This document shows, piece by piece, positions 2,964 to 11,791 of a DNA stretch of 20,977 nucleotides (positions are counted from its first letter, which is position 1; every line of letters begins with the position of its first letter). Under the pieces are notes generated by a model. It saw only the letters and a list, made by a program, of their open reading frames with translations, did no database searches and was not told the DNA's origin. A program made the translations under genes and the position numbers. This DNA is from a virus: positions 1 to 20,977 of IMG/VR virus record IMGVR_UViG_3300026932_000002; one strand, written 5' to 3'.

Positions 2964-3485
2964 ATGGCGCTAAACGACAAGCAGCGCCGCTTCGCGGATG
3001 AGTACCTGATCGACCTCAACGCCACGAAAGCGGCAGAGCGAGCAGGGTACAGCCCGAAAACAGCAAACGAGCAGGGCGCTCGGTTGTTAGCAAATGTTAG
3101 TGTCCAGGCATTGCTCACCGAGTGCATGCAGGCCCGCGCCAAGCGCACTGAAATCACGCAAGACAGGGTGCTGCAGGAGATTGCCCGGATCGCGTTTTTC
3201 GACCCGCGCACCCTGGTTGATGAAGAGGGTAAGCCGATCCCCCTGAAGCAGCTTGATGCTGACTCGGCGGCGGTCGTCGCCGGGCTCAAGCTTGAAATGC
3301 TCGGGGCTGTGCGCGAGTACAAGATCGCTGATAAGCTCAAAGCGCTTGACCAGTGCATGTCACATCTCGGCATGGGGAAGACAAAGGTTGAGCTGACGGG
3401 GTCGGGCGGTGGCCCGGTGCTTACTGGACAGGTCACACCCGAGCAGCTCGCCGAGGCCGTCCGTAATGTCCGAGACAAGTTTTAG
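2964..3485 (+). CDS. terS: terminase small subunit (Terminase_2 / XtmA family)
   Basis: A 173-residue protein. Residues 4-45 (NDKQRRFADEYLIDLNATKA, then AERAGYSPKTANEQGARLLA) form the typical Terminase_2 N-terminal helix-turn-helix, with the 'LNATKAAERAGYS' recognition segment that binds the packaging start site. A central helical oligomerisation region follows at about 55-135 (RTEITQDRVLQEIARIAFFD). The flexible Gly-rich C-terminus (TGSGGGPVLTG) precedes the helix that usually contacts the large subunit. ATG 2964 has GGAG eight bases upstream; an earlier ATG at 2862 lies in the preceding terminator and is rejected. The gene overlaps the large subunit by 20 bases. Length and motif are normal for the family. 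Confidence 0.9.
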   Translation: MALNDKQRRFADEYLIDLNATKAAERAGYSPKTANEQGARLLANVSVQALLTECMQARAKRTEITQDRVLQEIARIAFFDPRTLVDEEGKPIPLKQLDADSAAVVAGLKLEMLGAVREYKIADKLKALDQCMSHLGMGKTKVELTGSGGGPVLTGQVTPEQLAEAVRNVRDKF

Positions 3486-4923
3486 CGACGCCGAGCGCCT
3501 GGCGGCAATTGGGTGGGCACGCGAGGACCTCTACGAATTTACGCGCTGGATGTTTTTGCATCGGCGCGGGTACCGCTGGCAGGCAGCCAAGCACCACAAG
3601 TTGATTTGCGACGCGCTCATGCGGGTGCATCGGGGTGAGTGCAAACGGCTGATCATCAACATTCCGCCGCGCTACAGCAAAACGGAGCTGATCAAGAATT
3701 TTGTGGCCTGGTCGTTTGGTCGCAACCCAGACTGCGAGTGGATCTACACCAGTTACTCAACTCGCCTGGCGGCGGCAAGCTCTTGGGATGTTCGCGGGCT
3801 GATCCAGGACCCCGAGTACCAGTCGATTTTCCCTGACGTCGTTTTGCGCGACGACAGTCAAGCTAAGGACGAGTGGCGGACGGCTGCGGGCGGCATCATG
3901 TATGCCACTGGCTCGGGGGGGACGATTACCGGCTACGGAGCAGGCAAGCATCGAGATGGATTCTCGGGCGCGATCATCATAGACGACCCCCATAAAGCCG
4001 ACGAGGCGCGGTCTGATGTGATCCGGCAAGGTGTTATCGACTGGTTCCAGAACACACTGGAAAGCCGCAAAAACAGCCCGGACACGCCCGTCATTGTCAT
4101 CATGCAGAGGCTGCACGAAAGCGATTTGGCTGGATGGCTGCTCAATGGCGGGAATGGCGAAGAGTGGGAACACCTTTGCCTGTCGGTCTGGAATGACGAC
4201 GGCACGCCCTTGTGGCCGGAAAAGCACGACGCCGAAGCTCTGCGCAGGATGGAGACGGCGGCGCCGTATGTTTTTTCTGGACAGTATCGACAGCGACCAG
4301 CGCCGCCGAACGGGGGCATATTTAAACCGGACCAGATGCGTATCATTGATGCAATCCCGGCTGAGCGCATCGAATGGGTGAGAGGATGGGATTTCGCGGC
4401 GACGGAAGAGTCGGCATCTTCGAAAGATCCTGACTGGACTGTCGGTGGCAAGCTGGGCAAGCTGGCGGATGGCCGGCTGGTCATTGCTGACATTGCCAGG
4501 TTGCGAGCAGGCCCTGATGAGCGAGACGCTGCACTGACAAACACTGCGGGGCGTGATGGGGCTCTAGTAAAAATTAGCATCCCGCAAGATCCCGGACAAG
4601 CAGGCAAGACGCAGGCGCTGTACCTGACCCGCAAGCTGGCCGGATATCCAGTGCATACCTCCCCGGAGTCTGGCGACAAAGTGACGCGGGCTGAGCCGCT
4701 GGCTGCGCAGATCAACGTCGGCAACGTACTGATGCTGAAAGCCCCCTGGAATGACGCGCTAATCAGCGAAATGCGACTGTTCCCAAACGGCGCACATGAC
4801 GACCAAATTGACGCGCTGTCGCGGGCCTTTGAACGGCTGATCGGCAGCAACACCGGCATGCTCGACTACCTGCAATCGCAGGCTGAGCAGGCCCGACAAC
4901 GCAAAGAAGGAATGCTGAAATGA
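3466..4923 (+). CDS. terL: terminase large subunit (packaging ATPase-nuclease)
   Basis: A 485-residue motor protein that pumps DNA into the prohead and cuts it. Residues 67-74 (PPRYSKTE) are the deviant Walker A loop usual in this group. AIIIDDP at 169-175 is Walker B, followed by the QRLHESDLAGW segment (214-224) typical of the family. The C-terminal RNase-H-like nuclease carries its acids at GWDF (D309), QDPGQAG (D375) and HDDQIDA (444-450). Overall it fits the TIGR01630-type TerL with the 'phage uncharacterised' C-terminal domain. ATG 3466 lies inside terS and is preferred over an in-frame ATG at 3409 because it gives the usual N-terminus. Its stop overlaps the next start (ATGA 4920-4923). 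All catalytic residues are present, so the gene looks intact. Confidence 0.95.
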   Translation: MSETSFSDAERLAAIGWAREDLYEFTRWMFLHRRGYRWQAAKHHKLICDALMRVHRGECKRLIINIPPRYSKTELIKNFVAWSFGRNPDCEWIYTSYSTRLAAASSWDVRGLIQDPEYQSIFPDVVLRDDSQAKDEWRTAAGGIMYATGSGGTITGYGAGKHRDGFSGAIIIDDPHKADEARSDVIRQGVIDWFQNTLESRKNSPDTPVIVIMQRLHESDLAGWLLNGGNGEEWEHLCLSVWNDDGTPLWPEKHDAEALRRMETAAPYVFSGQYRQRPAPPNGGIFKPDQMRIIDAIPAERIEWVRGWDFAATEESASSKDPDWTVGGKLGKLADGRLVIADIARLRAGPDERDAALTNTAGRDGALVKISIPQDPGQAGKTQALYLTRKLAGYPVHTSPESGDKVTRAEPLAAQINVGNVLMLKAPWNDALISEMRLFPNGAHDDQIDALSRAFERLIGSNTGMLDYLQSQAEQARQRKEGMLK

Positions 4924-6338
4924 CCATTGCTTACCGCCTGCCGGGCAATCAGATGACCATCAACATCGACGGCGCCATGCTGCGCGCTGCTGATGACGGA
5001 TTTTTCCGCGTCGATTCCGGGTCACGTGCAGAGGCCGTGCTGCTCGCTGGCGGCGCTCAATTGGCCCCGGCTGGCGCAATCCCCGGGGATTCGTCGGATG
5101 TCGGCCTCACCCTCCCGGAGGTGTTGGCAGCCAGATCAGTAGTAGCTGGATACTCTTCGGATATTTATATTGGATCAAGAACAGGAAGAAAACTTGTAAT
5201 TTGGGGAGACAGCACCGCCGCGCAAAATGATGCTAGTAATTCTGGCTATCGGTATCTCGGTAATGCGTGGGTACAGAAAGGGCTGTACTGCGCAGGGAAT
5301 CCTCTTGACGTTGTCAACGTGGGTGGAAATAGCGGGCTGCGAACCGACCAAATTATTCCAAACTTTGCCGCCCAGGTTTCTGCATATTCGCCCGATTATG
5401 TGCTGTTGCCTGTGTGCACAAATGACCTTATCCAAGGGTATGGGAATTCAGCCGCTATCAATGGCTTGATGACAATGGTCGGCCTTGTCGAGAGTATCGG
5501 TGCAGTTCCCATTTTAAGCTGCCTCACCCCTGGCGATACTTGGGCCTCAAGTAGTGCAAATAGGGCTCTCTGGAAAACGCATAACACACTCGTCCGATCC
5601 ATTGGCGCTGCGATGGGATATCCAGTATGGGACGGGTCTTCCGCATTCGCAATCACGGCAGGCGAACCGGATGCAATAGTCGGCACAAATGACGGCATCC
5701 ATATGAACAACACCGGAACAGAGTATCTCGCTCCCGTACTCGGTGCGTTTTTCAAACAGCATTTCCCCCGTCGAAAGCTTGGGTCGCAGTTGGCAACCGG
5801 CAATCTCTGCACAAACCCGCTATTGACCGGGACGGGTGGGGCAAAACAATCTGGTGTTACGGGCGTGGTACCAGATGGTTGCACGGCAGCACAGGTTGCT
5901 GCATCTGTATCTAGCGTAGCGCTTAGAACTGATGGGGGACCGGGCAATTGGTGGCAGCAGTCGTTGACTCTTGCTGCGGGCACAGGATCAGTTTGGTATT
6001 TCGGAACCGCAACTCTTGCTGCTGCAGGTTTGGCCGTTGGTGATATCGTAAGGGCATCGGTTGATGTCGAGCTTGATAACGGAAGCTCTGGTTTGCATAG
6101 TATTGCCTTGAATATGTCATACACAGGGGGCTCTCAGACTTTGGCAATGTCCAATAATGACGCCACCAACAATGGTGTCGCAATCATAGGGGCTATCAAA
6201 AGACAGTTAGCTACTCCAAAAATTGCAATACCTTCTGGCACTACTGCAATCGGCATGTATCTGACAGTACAGACGAATACTTCAGCCGGTTCGGCTGTTG
6301 TTAGAGTCGGCGCCCCCAGCATCGTTAAGGTCTCCTGA
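4920..6338 (+). CDS. SGNH/GDSL-family hydrolase with N-terminal leader and C-terminal beta-domain
   Basis: A 472-residue protein. Residues 1-70 form a leader unlike hydrolases (MTIAYRLPGNQMTINIDGAM). The SGNH blocks then follow in order: IWGDST with nucleophile S98, VNVGGNSG (132-139) for the Gly block, CTND with N168, and DGIH with D258 and H261. So the four oxyanion/catalytic positions are all present, and an esterase or polysaccharide deacetylase is predicted. Residues about 290-472 are Gly/Ser/Thr-rich and beta-predicted, like a jelly-roll carbohydrate-binding domain (WWQQSLTLAAGTGSVWYFGT). No signal peptide is visible. It is coupled to terL by ATGA and followed by a terminator. Phage SGNH domains usually sit on tail spikes or adsorption proteins that deacetylate host surface glycans; a place between terminase and portal is unusual. 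From about 5137 the DNA is markedly AT-richer than its neighbours (24 G/C of 60 at 5161-5220), suggesting an acquired cassette. The substrate is unknown. Confidence 0.83.
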   Translation: MTIAYRLPGNQMTINIDGAMLRAADDGFFRVDSGSRAEAVLLAGGAQLAPAGAIPGDSSDVGLTLPEVLAARSVVAGYSSDIYIGSRTGRKLVIWGDSTAAQNDASNSGYRYLGNAWVQKGLYCAGNPLDVVNVGGNSGLRTDQIIPNFAAQVSAYSPDYVLLPVCTNDLIQGYGNSAAINGLMTMVGLVESIGAVPILSCLTPGDTWASSSANRALWKTHNTLVRSIGAAMGYPVWDGSSAFAITAGEPDAIVGTNDGIHMNNTGTEYLAPVLGAFFKQHFPRRKLGSQLATGNLCTNPLLTGTGGAKQSGVTGVVPDGCTAAQVAASVSSVALRTDGGPGNWWQQSLTLAAGTGSVWYFGTATLAAAGLAVGDIVRASVDVELDNGSSGLHSIALNMSYTGGSQTLAMSNNDATNNGVAIIGAIKRQLATPKIAIPSGTTAIGMYLTVQTNTSAGSAVVRVGAPSIVKVS

Positions 6339-6364: not shown

Positions 6365-6387
6365 AGCCCGCCCTGCGCGGGCTTTTT
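6365..6387 (+). terminator. intrinsic terminator after the SGNH gene
   Basis: AGCCCGC (6365-6371) pairs with GCGGGCT (6377-6383) around the loop CCTGC, with a T run at 6383-6387. It closes the packaging-SGNH unit, so portal and head genes need read-through or a hidden promoter. Confidence 0.82.
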
Positions 6388-6412
6388 CGTGCCCGTTCTT
6401 TCTGGATCCGCT

Positions 6413-6481
6413 ATGGCTACTTTTTCTGATCTTGAGCCGTACATCGCTGGCGATGTAGCAGGCTGCAACCACACTTCATAA
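6413..6481 (+). pseudogene. 22-codon open frame, likely remnant of a head-tail gene
   Basis: An ATG-to-TAA frame encoding MATFSDLEPYIAGDVAGCNH plus two residues lies between the terminator and the portal gene, with a weak CTGGA ribosome site. The opening 'MATFxDLxPYxxxxxxGC' resembles, from memory, the first 20 residues of a longer phage structural protein common in betaproteobacterial phages (typically continuing with an Ala-rich helix and an EFC motif). It stops at once, so I read it as a truncated remnant. It could also be a leader peptide or chance. Confidence 0.35.
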
Positions 6482-6497
6482 AACACAGGACAATCAC

Positions 6498-8633
6498 ATG
6501 TCACGCAACGCTCAAGGCCAAGCGATAGCGCCGGGTATTGTCGCGCAAGTCGCGGCGGGCCTGCGCTACGCGTTCACTGGCAATGCGCCGGATTGGTTCG
6601 GCCCGTTCAACCCGATGCCGCCGGCGGTATCTGGCGAGCAGGCCCAGCAAGCCGGGGTGGCTGGCCGGCGGTACGATTACCCGGTCGGTGCCAACGTCAA
6701 TTTCCAGCCGCGTGCAACCGAGGCAATCAGCTTTCCGACGCTGCGTGCACTTGCCGAAAATTACGATGTGTTGCGGCTCGTGATCGAGACACGCAAAGAC
6801 CAAGCGTGCTCACTCGCGTGGGGCATCCAGCCGAAGGACAAAACCAAGAAGCCCGATGACCGTTGCAAAGCCATCGAAGATTTTTTGGCGATGCCCGACC
6901 AGGAACATACGTGGGATGAGTGGCTGAGAATGCTGCTTGAAGACATGTATGTCATCGACGCTCCGACGCTCTACATCCGGCGCACGAAGGGCGGACAGCT
7001 CTTTTCGCTGGAGCCCATCGACGGCGCGACGATTCACCGTGTCATTGACGCGACCGGGCGCACGCCGATGGATGGCCCGGCTTACCAGCAGATCTTGAAG
7101 GGCGTGCCGGCCGTTGATTACACGCTCGACGAGCTGATCTACAAGCCTCGCAACATCCGCACGCACAAGCTCTACGGCTACTCGCCCGTCGAGCAGATCA
7201 TCAACACGATCAACATCGCGCTGCGTCGTCAGATGATGACGCTCAACTACTTCACGGAGGGGACGGTACCGGATGCCCTGGCCGGCGTGCCGCTGGACTG
7301 GACGCCACAGCAGATCAAGGAGTTCCAGGACTACTGGGATATGCTGCTGCAGGACGACATGGCATCGCGGCGCAAGTTGAAGTTCGTGCCCGGCGAAATC
7401 GCCAAAAACTTCCACGAAGTCAAGGCCCCGCCCCTCAAGGATCTGTTTGACGAATGGCTGGCGCGTGTTGTGTGTTTCACCTTCTCCATCGAGCACACCG
7501 CTTTCGTTTCCCAGGTCAATCGCGCGACGGCGGAGACCACCCGCGAGCAGTCCCTCGCAGAAGGCCTTGCATCCACGAAGCAATGGATCAAGGTACTCAT
7601 CGACCGGATCATCCTTCAGTGCTTCGGTTACACCGATCTGGAATTCGCGTGGGCGCCTGGCAAGATCATCGATCCGGCTGTGCAGCAAGTTGTGCTGAGC
7701 GGATATGTCACCGCCAAGATCCTGACCGACGACGAAGCGCGCGCGGAGATCGGCAAAGACCCGCTCACCCCCGAGCAGCGCGAGACCATGTCCCCGCCGC
7801 CACCGGTGATGGGTGGCGATGAAAAAGACCCGGACGGAGCTGACAAGGAGCCGCCATCTCCGGATGCCGGGAAGGTGCACAAGCGAAAAAAAGCACATCG
7901 GCAGATCGACAGGGATCGGTCTGCCGTGGCCACGAACACAAAGGCTTTTACTGATCTGATGTCCGGATACCTCTCCGGCAAGAAGGCGGGGATCATCAAG
8001 CAGTGCTGCGACCTCTTGAGTGCAGAGAAGCTGGAGAAGAAAGAGAAGGGCATCGACGATATCGATATCGACTTCTCCGATCTGCCGGAGGACGCCAAGG
8101 GCATCTTGGCCGCGATGGCGGTCGATGGCGGCGACGAAGCCCTGGCTCAATTCGACGTCTTCGACGAAGAGACGCTGAAGCTCGTGCGCCAGCAGGCGAC
8201 CGAGTGGGCAGATGACCGCGCTGCAGAGATGGTCGGCATGAAGTGGGTCGATGGCGAGCTTGTCGAAAACCCGGACGCTGAATGGCAGATCACCGAGGGC
8301 ACGCGTGAATTCCTGCGCTCCGACGTTGAAGCCGCGCTGGATGAAGGCTGGAGCACCGACGAGCTGAGTAGTGCGCTCGAAGAAAACTACGCCTTCTCGG
8401 AAGAGCGCGCCGACATGATTGCCCGCACTGAGATTGCCCGAGCGGACGTGGAAGGCACACGCGCCGGGTGGGACGAGATGGGCGTGCAGCAAGAAGAGTG
8501 GAGTGCGTCTCCAGGATGCTGTGACGCATGTCAAGAACTGGATGGTCAGATATTCGATCTTGGTGCCGCGCCCTTTCCGCAACATCCAAATGACGAATGC
8601 GCCCTTTTACCCGTCATTCCTGACGACGAATAG
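6498..8633 (+). CDS. portal protein fused to MuF-like minor head protein
   Basis: A 711-residue protein. Residues about 70-430 are a portal: RDQ-type entry helix (VLRLVIETRKDQACSLAWGI), YIRRTKGGQ strand, the LIYKPRNIRTHKLYGYSPVE clip/stem segment (213-232), and the helix around ATAETTREQSLAEGL (343-357). A Pro- and charge-rich linker (431-475) follows. The C-terminal 240 residues match MuF/SPP1 gp7-type proteins, ending with ARTEIARA (642-649), the cysteines 674, 675 and 678, and HPNDEC (696-701). The portal forms the dodecameric DNA gate at one capsid vertex; MuF proteins are internal or vertex-associated minor head proteins. AGGA at 6488-6491 precedes ATG 6498. Such fusions are known but uncommon. 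There is no sign of a frameshift, so one polypeptide is expected unless it is processed by the protease encoded next. Confidence 0.88.
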   Translation: MSRNAQGQAIAPGIVAQVAAGLRYAFTGNAPDWFGPFNPMPPAVSGEQAQQAGVAGRRYDYPVGANVNFQPRATEAISFPTLRALAENYDVLRLVIETRKDQACSLAWGIQPKDKTKKPDDRCKAIEDFLAMPDQEHTWDEWLRMLLEDMYVIDAPTLYIRRTKGGQLFSLEPIDGATIHRVIDATGRTPMDGPAYQQILKGVPAVDYTLDELIYKPRNIRTHKLYGYSPVEQIINTINIALRRQMMTLNYFTEGTVPDALAGVPLDWTPQQIKEFQDYWDMLLQDDMASRRKLKFVPGEIAKNFHEVKAPPLKDLFDEWLARVVCFTFSIEHTAFVSQVNRATAETTREQSLAEGLASTKQWIKVLIDRIILQCFGYTDLEFAWAPGKIIDPAVQQVVLSGYVTAKILTDDEARAEIGKDPLTPEQRETMSPPPPVMGGDEKDPDGADKEPPSPDAGKVHKRKKAHRQIDRDRSAVATNTKAFTDLMSGYLSGKKAGIIKQCCDLLSAEKLEKKEKGIDDIDIDFSDLPEDAKGILAAMAVDGGDEALAQFDVFDEETLKLVRQQATEWADDRAAEMVGMKWVDGELVENPDAEWQITEGTREFLRSDVEAALDEGWSTDELSSALEENYAFSEERADMIARTEIARADVEGTRAGWDEMGVQQEEWSASPGCCDACQELDGQIFDLGAAPFPQHPNDECALLPVIPDDE

Positions 8634-10051: not shown

Positions 10052-11557
10052 ATGTCATCTCTCAATGAGACCCTGGAGCTGGTCAAAACGGCCCAGAAAA
10101 CCGCCTCGGCAGAAATCGCCAAGGCATTCACCCAGCCGGGATCGGCCACCACCGGTCTGCAAGGCTATGACCTGGAAGCGCCGGCCAAGAGCCTTTACCC
10201 GGTCCTGACGCCGCTGCGCAACAAGATTCCGCGTCGTGGTGGTGGTATTGCTACGCAGGCCAACTGGAAGGCCATCACCGGCGTCAACACCACCAACCTG
10301 CGCGCCGGCGTGTCGGAAGGCAATCGTGGCGGCGTGATCAGCCAGACTACCGCCGAATACTTCGCCGCGTATCGTGCTATCGGTCTGGAAAACAACGTCA
10401 CGTTCGAAGCCGACTACGCTGCGCAGGGCTTCGAAGACCTGAAGGCGCTGGCTGTCCGCCAGTCGCTGGAAGCCACGATGATCAGGGAAGAAATGCTGAT
10501 CCTCGGCGGCAACACCTCGTTGGCATACGGTACGCCGGTCACGCCGACGCTGGTCAACAACGCATCCGGCGGCACGCTGGCCGCCCAGACCTGGAGCGTC
10601 ATCGTTGTTGCCCTCGGTTTGCAGGCCTACTGGGATGTTGCCGGTGCGAACAACGGCCGCGTGGGTCAGTCGCTCTCGATTGCCTCGGCTGTCGTGCCCA
10701 GCTCGATCACCCGGACCAACGCGGATGGCTCGACGGACACGTTCAATGGCGGCATCTCCGCCAAGTCCGCCGCTGCGACGGTCACCACCACCGGCTCGAC
10801 CAGCTCCATCGGCGCCAGCACCACGGCCGTCACGGGAGCGGTGGCGTATGCATGGTACTGGGGCGCGAGTGGGTCCGAAGTCCTTGGCGCCGTTACCACG
10901 GTCAACAGCGTGCTGATCACCGCCGCCGCCACCGGTACGCAGACTGCCGCGTCCATCACCTCCAGCACCGACTTTTCCACCTCCTCGCTGGATTTTGACG
11001 GACTGCTGACCATCGCATCCAAAGGCCTGGGCTCTCAGTATCTGGCGCTGGGCACTGGCACGCCGGGAACCGGTACGACGCTGACCGCAGGAACTGGCCG
11101 CGTTGTTGAAATCGACACGATGCTGGCGAACTTCTGGGACAAGTACCGCCTGCAGCCGAACGAAATCCATATGTCGTTCCGGCAGTTCCAGAAGATCACC
11201 AATCTGGTCCTCGGCAGCACGAACCCGAACGTGATGTTCACCGTGAATCCGAATTCGCCGGAAGTCGTGGTGGCTGGCCGAAACGTCGGGAAGTATGTCT
11301 CGCCGATCAATGGGGTCATCATCGATCTGATCGTGCATCCCAACATGCCGCCCGGCACGATGTTTTTCAATACCACGCAGGCGCCGGCCTACGTGCAGGG
11401 CATCCCGGACATCGTCCGTGTGCGCACTCGCCGCGAGTATTACCAGATCGAGTGGCCGCTCCGCACTCGCCGGTATGAGTACGGTGTTTATGCGGACGAA
11501 GTCCTGCAGCACTACTTCCCGCCCGCCATTGGCGTCCTGACCAACATCGCCAACTAA
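10052..11557 (+). CDS. major capsid protein with Ig-like insertion
   Basis: A 501-residue protein. The N-terminal part (1-150) has a helical arm and then the core start: YPVLTPLRNKIPRRGGG (49-65), WKAITGV, EYFAAYRAIGLENNVTFEA. The C-terminal core runs from about 350 (EIDTMLANFWDKY, then NEIHMSFRQFQKITN, then VVAGRNVGKYVSPINGV) to the end (RREYYQIEWPLRTRRYEYGV). Between them, residues about 165-310 are Thr/Ser/Gly/Ala-rich and beta-predicted, with two related segments (AAQTWSVIVVALGLQAYW, and AVAYAWYWGASGSEVLGA), as in Ig-like surface domains inserted in HK97-fold capsid proteins. It is found right after the protease gene, and GGAG at 10041-10044 precedes the ATG. The N-terminal arm may be cleaved by the upstream protease. 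Identification rests on position, core pattern and size. Confidence 0.87.
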   Translation: MSSLNETLELVKTAQKTASAEIAKAFTQPGSATTGLQGYDLEAPAKSLYPVLTPLRNKIPRRGGGIATQANWKAITGVNTTNLRAGVSEGNRGGVISQTTAEYFAAYRAIGLENNVTFEADYAAQGFEDLKALAVRQSLEATMIREEMLILGGNTSLAYGTPVTPTLVNNASGGTLAAQTWSVIVVALGLQAYWDVAGANNGRVGQSLSIASAVVPSSITRTNADGSTDTFNGGISAKSAAATVTTTGSTSSIGASTTAVTGAVAYAWYWGASGSEVLGAVTTVNSVLITAAATGTQTAASITSSTDFSTSSLDFDGLLTIASKGLGSQYLALGTGTPGTGTTLTAGTGRVVEIDTMLANFWDKYRLQPNEIHMSFRQFQKITNLVLGSTNPNVMFTVNPNSPEVVVAGRNVGKYVSPINGVIIDLIVHPNMPPGTMFFNTTQAPAYVQGIPDIVRVRTRREYYQIEWPLRTRRYEYGVYADEVLQHYFPPAIGVLTNIAN

Positions 11558-11602: not shown

Positions 11603-11791
11603 ATGGCACTCATCAAACTTGTCGCACCGGACGGCATCGTGAGCATTTCTCTCGGCGGCCAGGAATATGTCGTTGGAAAGAAAGGCGTCACGGATATCCC
11701 TGAAGAGCACGCGCTGAACCTCTACCAGTACGGCTGGAAGAACCCGGATGGTTCTGCTGACGTGCCCGACACCACCGCTGCCGCGAGCTGA
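11603..11791 (+). CDS. small hypothetical head protein, 62 aa
   Basis: The product (MALIKLVAPDGIVSISLGGQ onward) is a short beta-rich protein with a 'YVVGKKGVTDIPEEHALNLY' segment that reads like a small phage head or head-tail accessory protein; a disordered Ala/Thr tail follows. GGAG at 11593-11596 gives a good ribosome site. It lies between the major capsid gene and the connector gene, where small decoration or joining proteins are often found. I do not recognise a named family and would not call it a decoration protein without structural evidence. Confidence 0.7.
   Translation: MALIKLVAPDGIVSISLGGQEYVVGKKGVTDIPEEHALNLYQYGWKNPDGSADVPDTTAAAS

Follow-up and report, generated by a model that had tools for sequence, protein, structure and literature searches.

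A gene lying between the terminase and portal genes of a siphophage-like virus encodes an SGNH hydrolase that can be read, with modest confidence, as a virion-borne glycan O-acyl esterase, in which an exchangeable cassette of SGNH and carbohydrate-binding parts would be mounted on a small docking module. The window, i.e., the whole stretch of DNA analysed, is an entire IMG/VR record of 20,977 bp and represents part of a late region, with the gene order small terminase, large terminase (TerL), SGNH ORF, portal-MuF, prohead protease-like, capsid, 62-aa ORF, adaptor, neck, and tail (Table 1). As reported in the preliminary description made from the sequence, the SGNH ORF (4920-6338, + strand) stands between terminase and portal, the latter starting at 6498. 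It starts with ATG, codes for a protein of 472 aa, and overlaps the stop codon of TerL through an ATGA sequence.

Table 1. Features of the window around the esterase gene and the small module encoded after the capsid gene
Feature	Coordinates	Strand	Basis
Terminase large subunit (TerL), upstream neighbour	3466..4923	+	Pfam Terminase_6C, phrog_38
Leader / putative docking module, residues 1-57	4920..5090	+	Paucibacter identity, TerL-like GC3, predicted secondary structure, profile-profile match
Linker, residues 58-80, with GC3 change point at 5126	5091..5159	+	GC3 change-point analysis
SGNH hydrolase domain, residues about 81-300	5160..5819	+	PF13472, PHROG_6102, residues read directly
C-terminal all-beta part (predicted), residues about 301-472	5820..6335	+	BLASTP to ~450, PHROG_6102 to 471, structural matches
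Intrinsic-terminator-like hairpin and T run, between esterase gene and portal	6365..6383	+	Folding z -2.2
Portal with C-terminal MuF-like domain, downstream neighbour	6498..8633	+	Pfam Phage_portal, Phage_Mu_F
Probable major capsid protein	10052-11557		phrog_13692 (no named function); assigned by position
62-aa stand-alone small module, directly 3' of the capsid gene	11603..11791	+	phrog_26071, E 7.7e-9

The catalytic residues can be read directly in the product as S98 (GDS), G136, N168 (TND), and D258 with H261 (DGIH). Blocks I, II, III, and V follow each other in order with Ser, Gly, Asn, and Asp-x-x-His, which places the protein in the SGNH/GDSL superfamily. The Pfam family Lipase_GDSL_2 (PF13472) matches residues 96-266 with 52.7 bits for a cut-off of 32.9 (E 9.4e-14), and the PHROG_6102 "lipase" profile matches residues 89-471 (E 1.2e-27), spanning both the catalytic and the C-terminal parts. 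Because the residues are in place, the Pfam score exceeds its cut-off, and PHROG_6102 also matches, this catalytic set is far beyond chance, and the full set announced earlier is found at the very same positions. The AF2 model of the SGNH part, built on a two-sequence alignment, has a pLDDT of about 25-40 and is unusable, so no active-site geometry is claimed; a PDB sequence search with the full 472-aa protein returned no matches. The C-terminal part is also found in the homologues from phages Jojan60 and Belphegor, with BLASTP alignments reaching residue ~450. It is probably a carbohydrate-binding jelly roll, in line with its first description as jelly-roll-like: it is predicted to be all-beta, and its structural matches include the CBM61, CBM16, and CBM4 jelly rolls with Z of about 6-7, obtained from a low-confidence model (pLDDT about 40-51).

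The leader of the protein is shared with that of another phage carrying a very different hydrolase. Indeed, the terminase-portal gap of a Paucibacter sp. KBW04 prophage (locus L012, the same as L082) encodes a 542-aa protein (L012:4070-5695) that begins with the leader of the window, BLASTP aligning the two proteins over residues 5-46 only, with 59.5% identity (E 1e-8). Both proteins occupy the same site between terminase and portal, and both hydrolases are SGNH enzymes matching PHROG_6102, one broad family. However, no BLASTP alignment is obtained between the two hydrolases, and Block I (GDS) of the Paucibacter enzyme is set off by an insert of ~80 residues. By BLASTP, the nearest relative of the window hydrolase is found in Stenotrophomonas phage Jojan60 (E 6e-18), whereas that of the Paucibacter hydrolase is found in Gordonia phage Belphegor (E 9e-14). 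As the nearest hydrolases differ while the leader is shared, leader and enzyme have therefore had separate histories in both phages. An interchangeable enzyme on a resident docking piece is suggested because the same leader precedes a very different esterase in the same spot. Judging from these alignments, exchange behind the leader appears once, between the window and the Paucibacter locus, and the enzyme cassette looks exchangeable between phages.

Close copies of the leader are rare in the collections searched. A query with residues 1-75 alone did not hit any of 50,697 phage records, and peptide and DNA patterns retrieved from IMG/VR only one identical contig, IMGVR_3300026947_000010. With 100% identity along 10.7 kb, this contig represents the same virus and was rejected as an independent relative. 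A third close leader was not found in about 800 proteobacterial genomes, the Paucibacter protein being the sole other one; weak matches in L164, L166, and L343-L345 look like chance on inspection. The leader is absent from the Jojan60, Belphegor, and PhiPsa374 proteins. It had been proposed to search with the leader alone for different enzymes behind it, a leader always joined to the same hydrolase being taken as evidence against a cassette. The search did yield the same leader with a hydrolase that BLASTP cannot align, and strictly the leader is not always found with the same enzyme; nevertheless, only two leaders are known, and both carry an SGNH cargo of the PHROG_6102 family.

The base composition of the gene changes close to the edge of the leader. 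The best GC3 change point falls after codon 69 (window 5126), with a single drop from 0.72 to 0.46 (permutation p 0.001), very near the position of about 5137 given in the preliminary description. The leader, said there to be GC-rich like its neighbours, indeed has a GC3 of 0.684, compared with 0.685 for TerL and 0.743 for the portal, whereas the values are 0.495 for the SGNH part and 0.43 for the C-terminal part. The homology edge of the leader (about residue 46-57) roughly matches this break and the leader, not the hydrolase, is shared with the Paucibacter locus, both of which sustain the earlier proposal of a hydrolase cassette joined to a resident leader. In the Paucibacter protein, the break is less sharp, with a GC3 of 0.77 for the leader and 0.67-0.73 for the remainder.

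From profile comparison and predicted secondary structure, the leader is probably a divergent copy of the small module that stands alone after the capsid gene. This small protein family is common to filled terminase-portal gaps and to the post-capsid position in many relatives (proteobacterial prophages), the gap members matching the post-capsid members with an hhalign probability of 96.8% (E 2.7e-10). Its consensus is of the type K-L-x-A-P-x-G ... G-x-x-Y ... G-x-x-x-V-P ... L-x-x-x-G-[FW]; no Pfam match was obtained in the members tested, and phrog_26071, which has no assigned function, covers part of the family. Compared with the post-capsid profile, the leader reaches an hhalign probability of 83-88%; the score of 27.5, obtained at 83%, is attained by none of 150 column shuffles (none above 17.7). 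The AF2 models of the leader (strands 2-6, 13-16, 19-22, and 29-32, helix 36-43; pLDDT 58-71) and of the post-capsid protein (strands 3-7, 14-17, 20-23, and 29-33, helix 34-41; pLDDT 80-88 for residues 1-50) display the same strand-strand-strand-strand-helix register. The homology is graded as probable rather than established because an ordinary hmmsearch makes no significant connection (E 4-45). Moreover, the leader gave no match when the profile was restricted to the proteins of the terminase-portal gap (hhalign probability 0.7%). An HMM of the leader seeded with the window and Paucibacter sequences seemed strong family-wide; after reseeding without them, the leader was not significant, and the claim is for this reason kept at the level of profile-profile comparison.

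Other small phage proteins were considered as relatives of the module. Lambda gpFI and JBD30 gp39, the latter a capsid decoration protein (PMC11445458), are likewise small and encoded directly after the capsid gene but show no sequence or profile similarity to it: 42 gpFI variants gave no hmmsearch match and an hhalign probability under 1%, the gpFI structure is absent among the Foldseek matches listed for the module, and sequence and profile comparisons with gp39 were negative. Sequence matches in the PDB are at chance level only, e.g., the P74-26 head decoration protein (E 1.8). By fold, the best matches of the 62-aa module in the PDB (Z 4.3) are GINS/Sld5 domains and ribosomal L6. This resemblance is attributed to a small arrangement that is common among proteins, and no phage protein is among the fold matches listed. 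In Methylobacterium and other Rhizobiales prophages, the module is seemingly found at the C-terminus of TerL (L137, L141, L143, L145, L146, and L159, E 5e-5 to 3e-3 each; weakly in L131, L144, and L149), where it might be a terminase-capsid tether. A recurrent C-terminal tag (about DTTxG, then WDGxTWRN and TGA) is observed in L024, L025, L087, L091, L106, L183, L149:14629, and L145:15004; in the gap and post-capsid module proteins tested, this tag matches phrog_20787, a virion structural protein.

Relatives were gathered via the portal (70 viral and 80 genome loci) and the terminase (80 loci), and their gaps were read. Of the 92 portal-family loci in which both genes are present, about half have a gap shorter than 150 bp. 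Gap contents include lysis-like genes, assigned by eye as endopeptidase-, holin-, and spanin-like ORFs (L009:3755-5535 and L060:3539-4726) or lysozyme- and holin-like ORFs (L150:5278-6980), an HNH endonuclease-like ORF (L020), small proteins of about 95-116 aa (L024, L087, and L183; directly before the portal in L025, L091, and L106), and a 303-aa fibre-like protein (L040). In a Rhodocyclaceae MAG/prophage (L157:3829-6079), the gap contains a trypsin-like protease-like ORF, a small module protein, and a separate SGNH hydrolase. This hydrolase shares 64% identity with a Bradyrhizobium phage BDU-MI-1 protein and gives a match to PHROG_9703 "head decoration" (E 5.6e-12), the latter speaking for a virion-borne enzyme. 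Five genes are inserted between terminase and portal in the Arthrobacter phage Laroye of cluster AL (PMC5513430).

Among phage proteins of the same family, gp053 of Pseudomonas phage PhiPsa374 is a strong PHROG_6102 member (E 1e-158). LC-MS/MS of purified virions identified it from 42 unique peptides covering 94% of the protein (PMC9796965). Because of this member, the window protein is taken as virion-borne rather than free, an analogy that gives supported but indirect grounds. Like the window protein, gp053 combines the SGNH and C-terminal parts over most of its length and is encoded near the terminase, but it has no leader, shares 25% identity, and its gene is located a few genes upstream of the terminase instead of in the terminase-portal gap. 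The Jojan60 and Belphegor esterases are the nearest in hydrolase and C-terminal part, with 25-27% identity along some 360 residues, but they are devoid of the leader module, and their genes adjoin the one for the tail tube or for the major tail protein. The statement that SGNH enzymes are normally found with tail spikes is too strong: the Jojan60 gene adjoins the tail tube gene, those of Belphegor and Jasmine stand among capsid and tail genes, and that of PhiPsa374 stands upstream of the terminase.

SGNH proteins of other phage particles deacetylate capsule or LPS, and most of those studied in virions are tail spikes or fibres (PMC8471582, PMC13123978). Gp41 of Acinetobacter phage Aristophanes associates an N-terminal particle-binding part with an exchangeable enzyme part (PMC8471582), and gp63.1 of E. 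coli phage G7C, cited in PMC13123978, is another virion SGNH deacetylase. As far as these descriptions go, gp41 and gp63.1 are comparable to the window protein as SGNH deacetylases carried by virions, but they form tail spikes or fibres, and their N-terminal domains are different.

In the proposed mechanism, the protein would consist of three parts, a ~55-residue N-terminal docking module resident in the head-gene cluster of the phage lineage, the SGNH domain, and a C-terminal jelly roll. The esterase would be made together with the late genes via translational coupling to the terminase and would be brought into the particle by its leader. The jelly roll would probably bind glycan, while the SGNH domain would strip acyl groups from the host surface polysaccharide at adsorption. 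The genomic context of the module suggests docking to the head: in dozens of relatives, the genes of modules resembling the leader belong to the head cluster, where they follow the capsid gene or lie between TerL and portal. Where a gene lies does not determine where its product sits in the particle, and the protein may instead be located on the tail. A receptor-binding esterase docked by its leader to the tail or baseplate is compatible with a virion location and competes only with head docking; this is a real though minority possibility, consistent with the predominance of spikes and fibres among studied virion SGNH proteins and with the annotation of PhiPsa374 gp053 as a tail fibre, its gene having a tail fibre gene as neighbour a short way upstream of the terminase, whereas the head-cluster context of leader-like modules argues against it. 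A broader proposal is that the leader belongs to a general head-docking family, occurring alone after the capsid, at the TerL C-terminus in Rhizobiales phages, and, in the gap, at the N-terminus of fibres, tags, and enzymes that it would anchor. This would place the esterase on the capsid or neck rather than on the tail and make the gap a cargo slot for head-mounted surface enzymes; this generalization is tentative and rather doubtful.

The preliminary description also considered a moron altering the lysogen surface, i.e., a passenger gene expressed in the lysogen whose product edits host surface polysaccharide (superinfection exclusion) outside the virion. PHROGs files PHROG_6102 as "moron, auxiliary metabolic gene", the GC of the gene is below that of its neighbours, and the terminator-like hairpin lies directly 3' of it. 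Further downstream, a truncated ORF start at 6413 (MATFSDLEPYIAGDVAGCN..., in full MATFSDLEPYIAGDVAGCNHTS*) stops after 22 codons; hairpin and ORF start (window 6365-6480) look like possible insertion scars, for which no donor was found in phages and fetched loci, nor any relative of the 22-residue ORF start. In Arthrobacter phage Hum25 (L339:5779-9018), a PHROG_6102-type esterase gene stands beside a convergent O-acetyltransferase gene near the integrase, possibly an add-and-remove acetylation pair, which also speaks for a moron. However, a hydropathy scan detected neither a signal peptide nor an N-terminal hydrophobic or membrane segment for export, and a sigma-70 consensus scan revealed no upstream promoter (2 matches versus 1.1 expected, both inside the ORF). 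Owing to these two features and to the coupling with the terminase through the overlapping start codon, the moron is weakened to an unlikely explanation, the more so as a family member is a virion protein and no terminator-like or promoter-like match was obtained at the Paucibacter locus. A cytoplasmic esterase helping to degrade O-acetylated peptidoglycan at lysis was considered because the TerL-portal gap holds lysis genes in sister phages, as seen in the ORFs assigned by eye in L009, L060, and L150. It is very improbable, since the hydrolases of this family probably possess a carbohydrate-binding tail, one of them is a virion protein, and no holin or lysin adjoins the esterase gene in the window.

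Since neither insertions between terminase and portal nor SGNH enzymes are new in kind, the novelty of this finding lies in the arrangement of leader and cargo. The label of PHROG_6102 as a moron family is at least questioned, one of its members being a proven virion protein. The small module constitutes a recurrent family without a Pfam match, which many proteobacterial prophages encode 3' of the capsid gene and which is apparently found at the TerL C-terminus as well, and because of this recurrence, its role in packaging or decoration is directly testable. If the leader docks to the head, it would provide an exchangeable route for bringing glycan-modifying enzymes onto capsids or necks that differs from the use of tail spikes, and the ~55-residue module would represent a tag by which cargo could be attached to phage heads.
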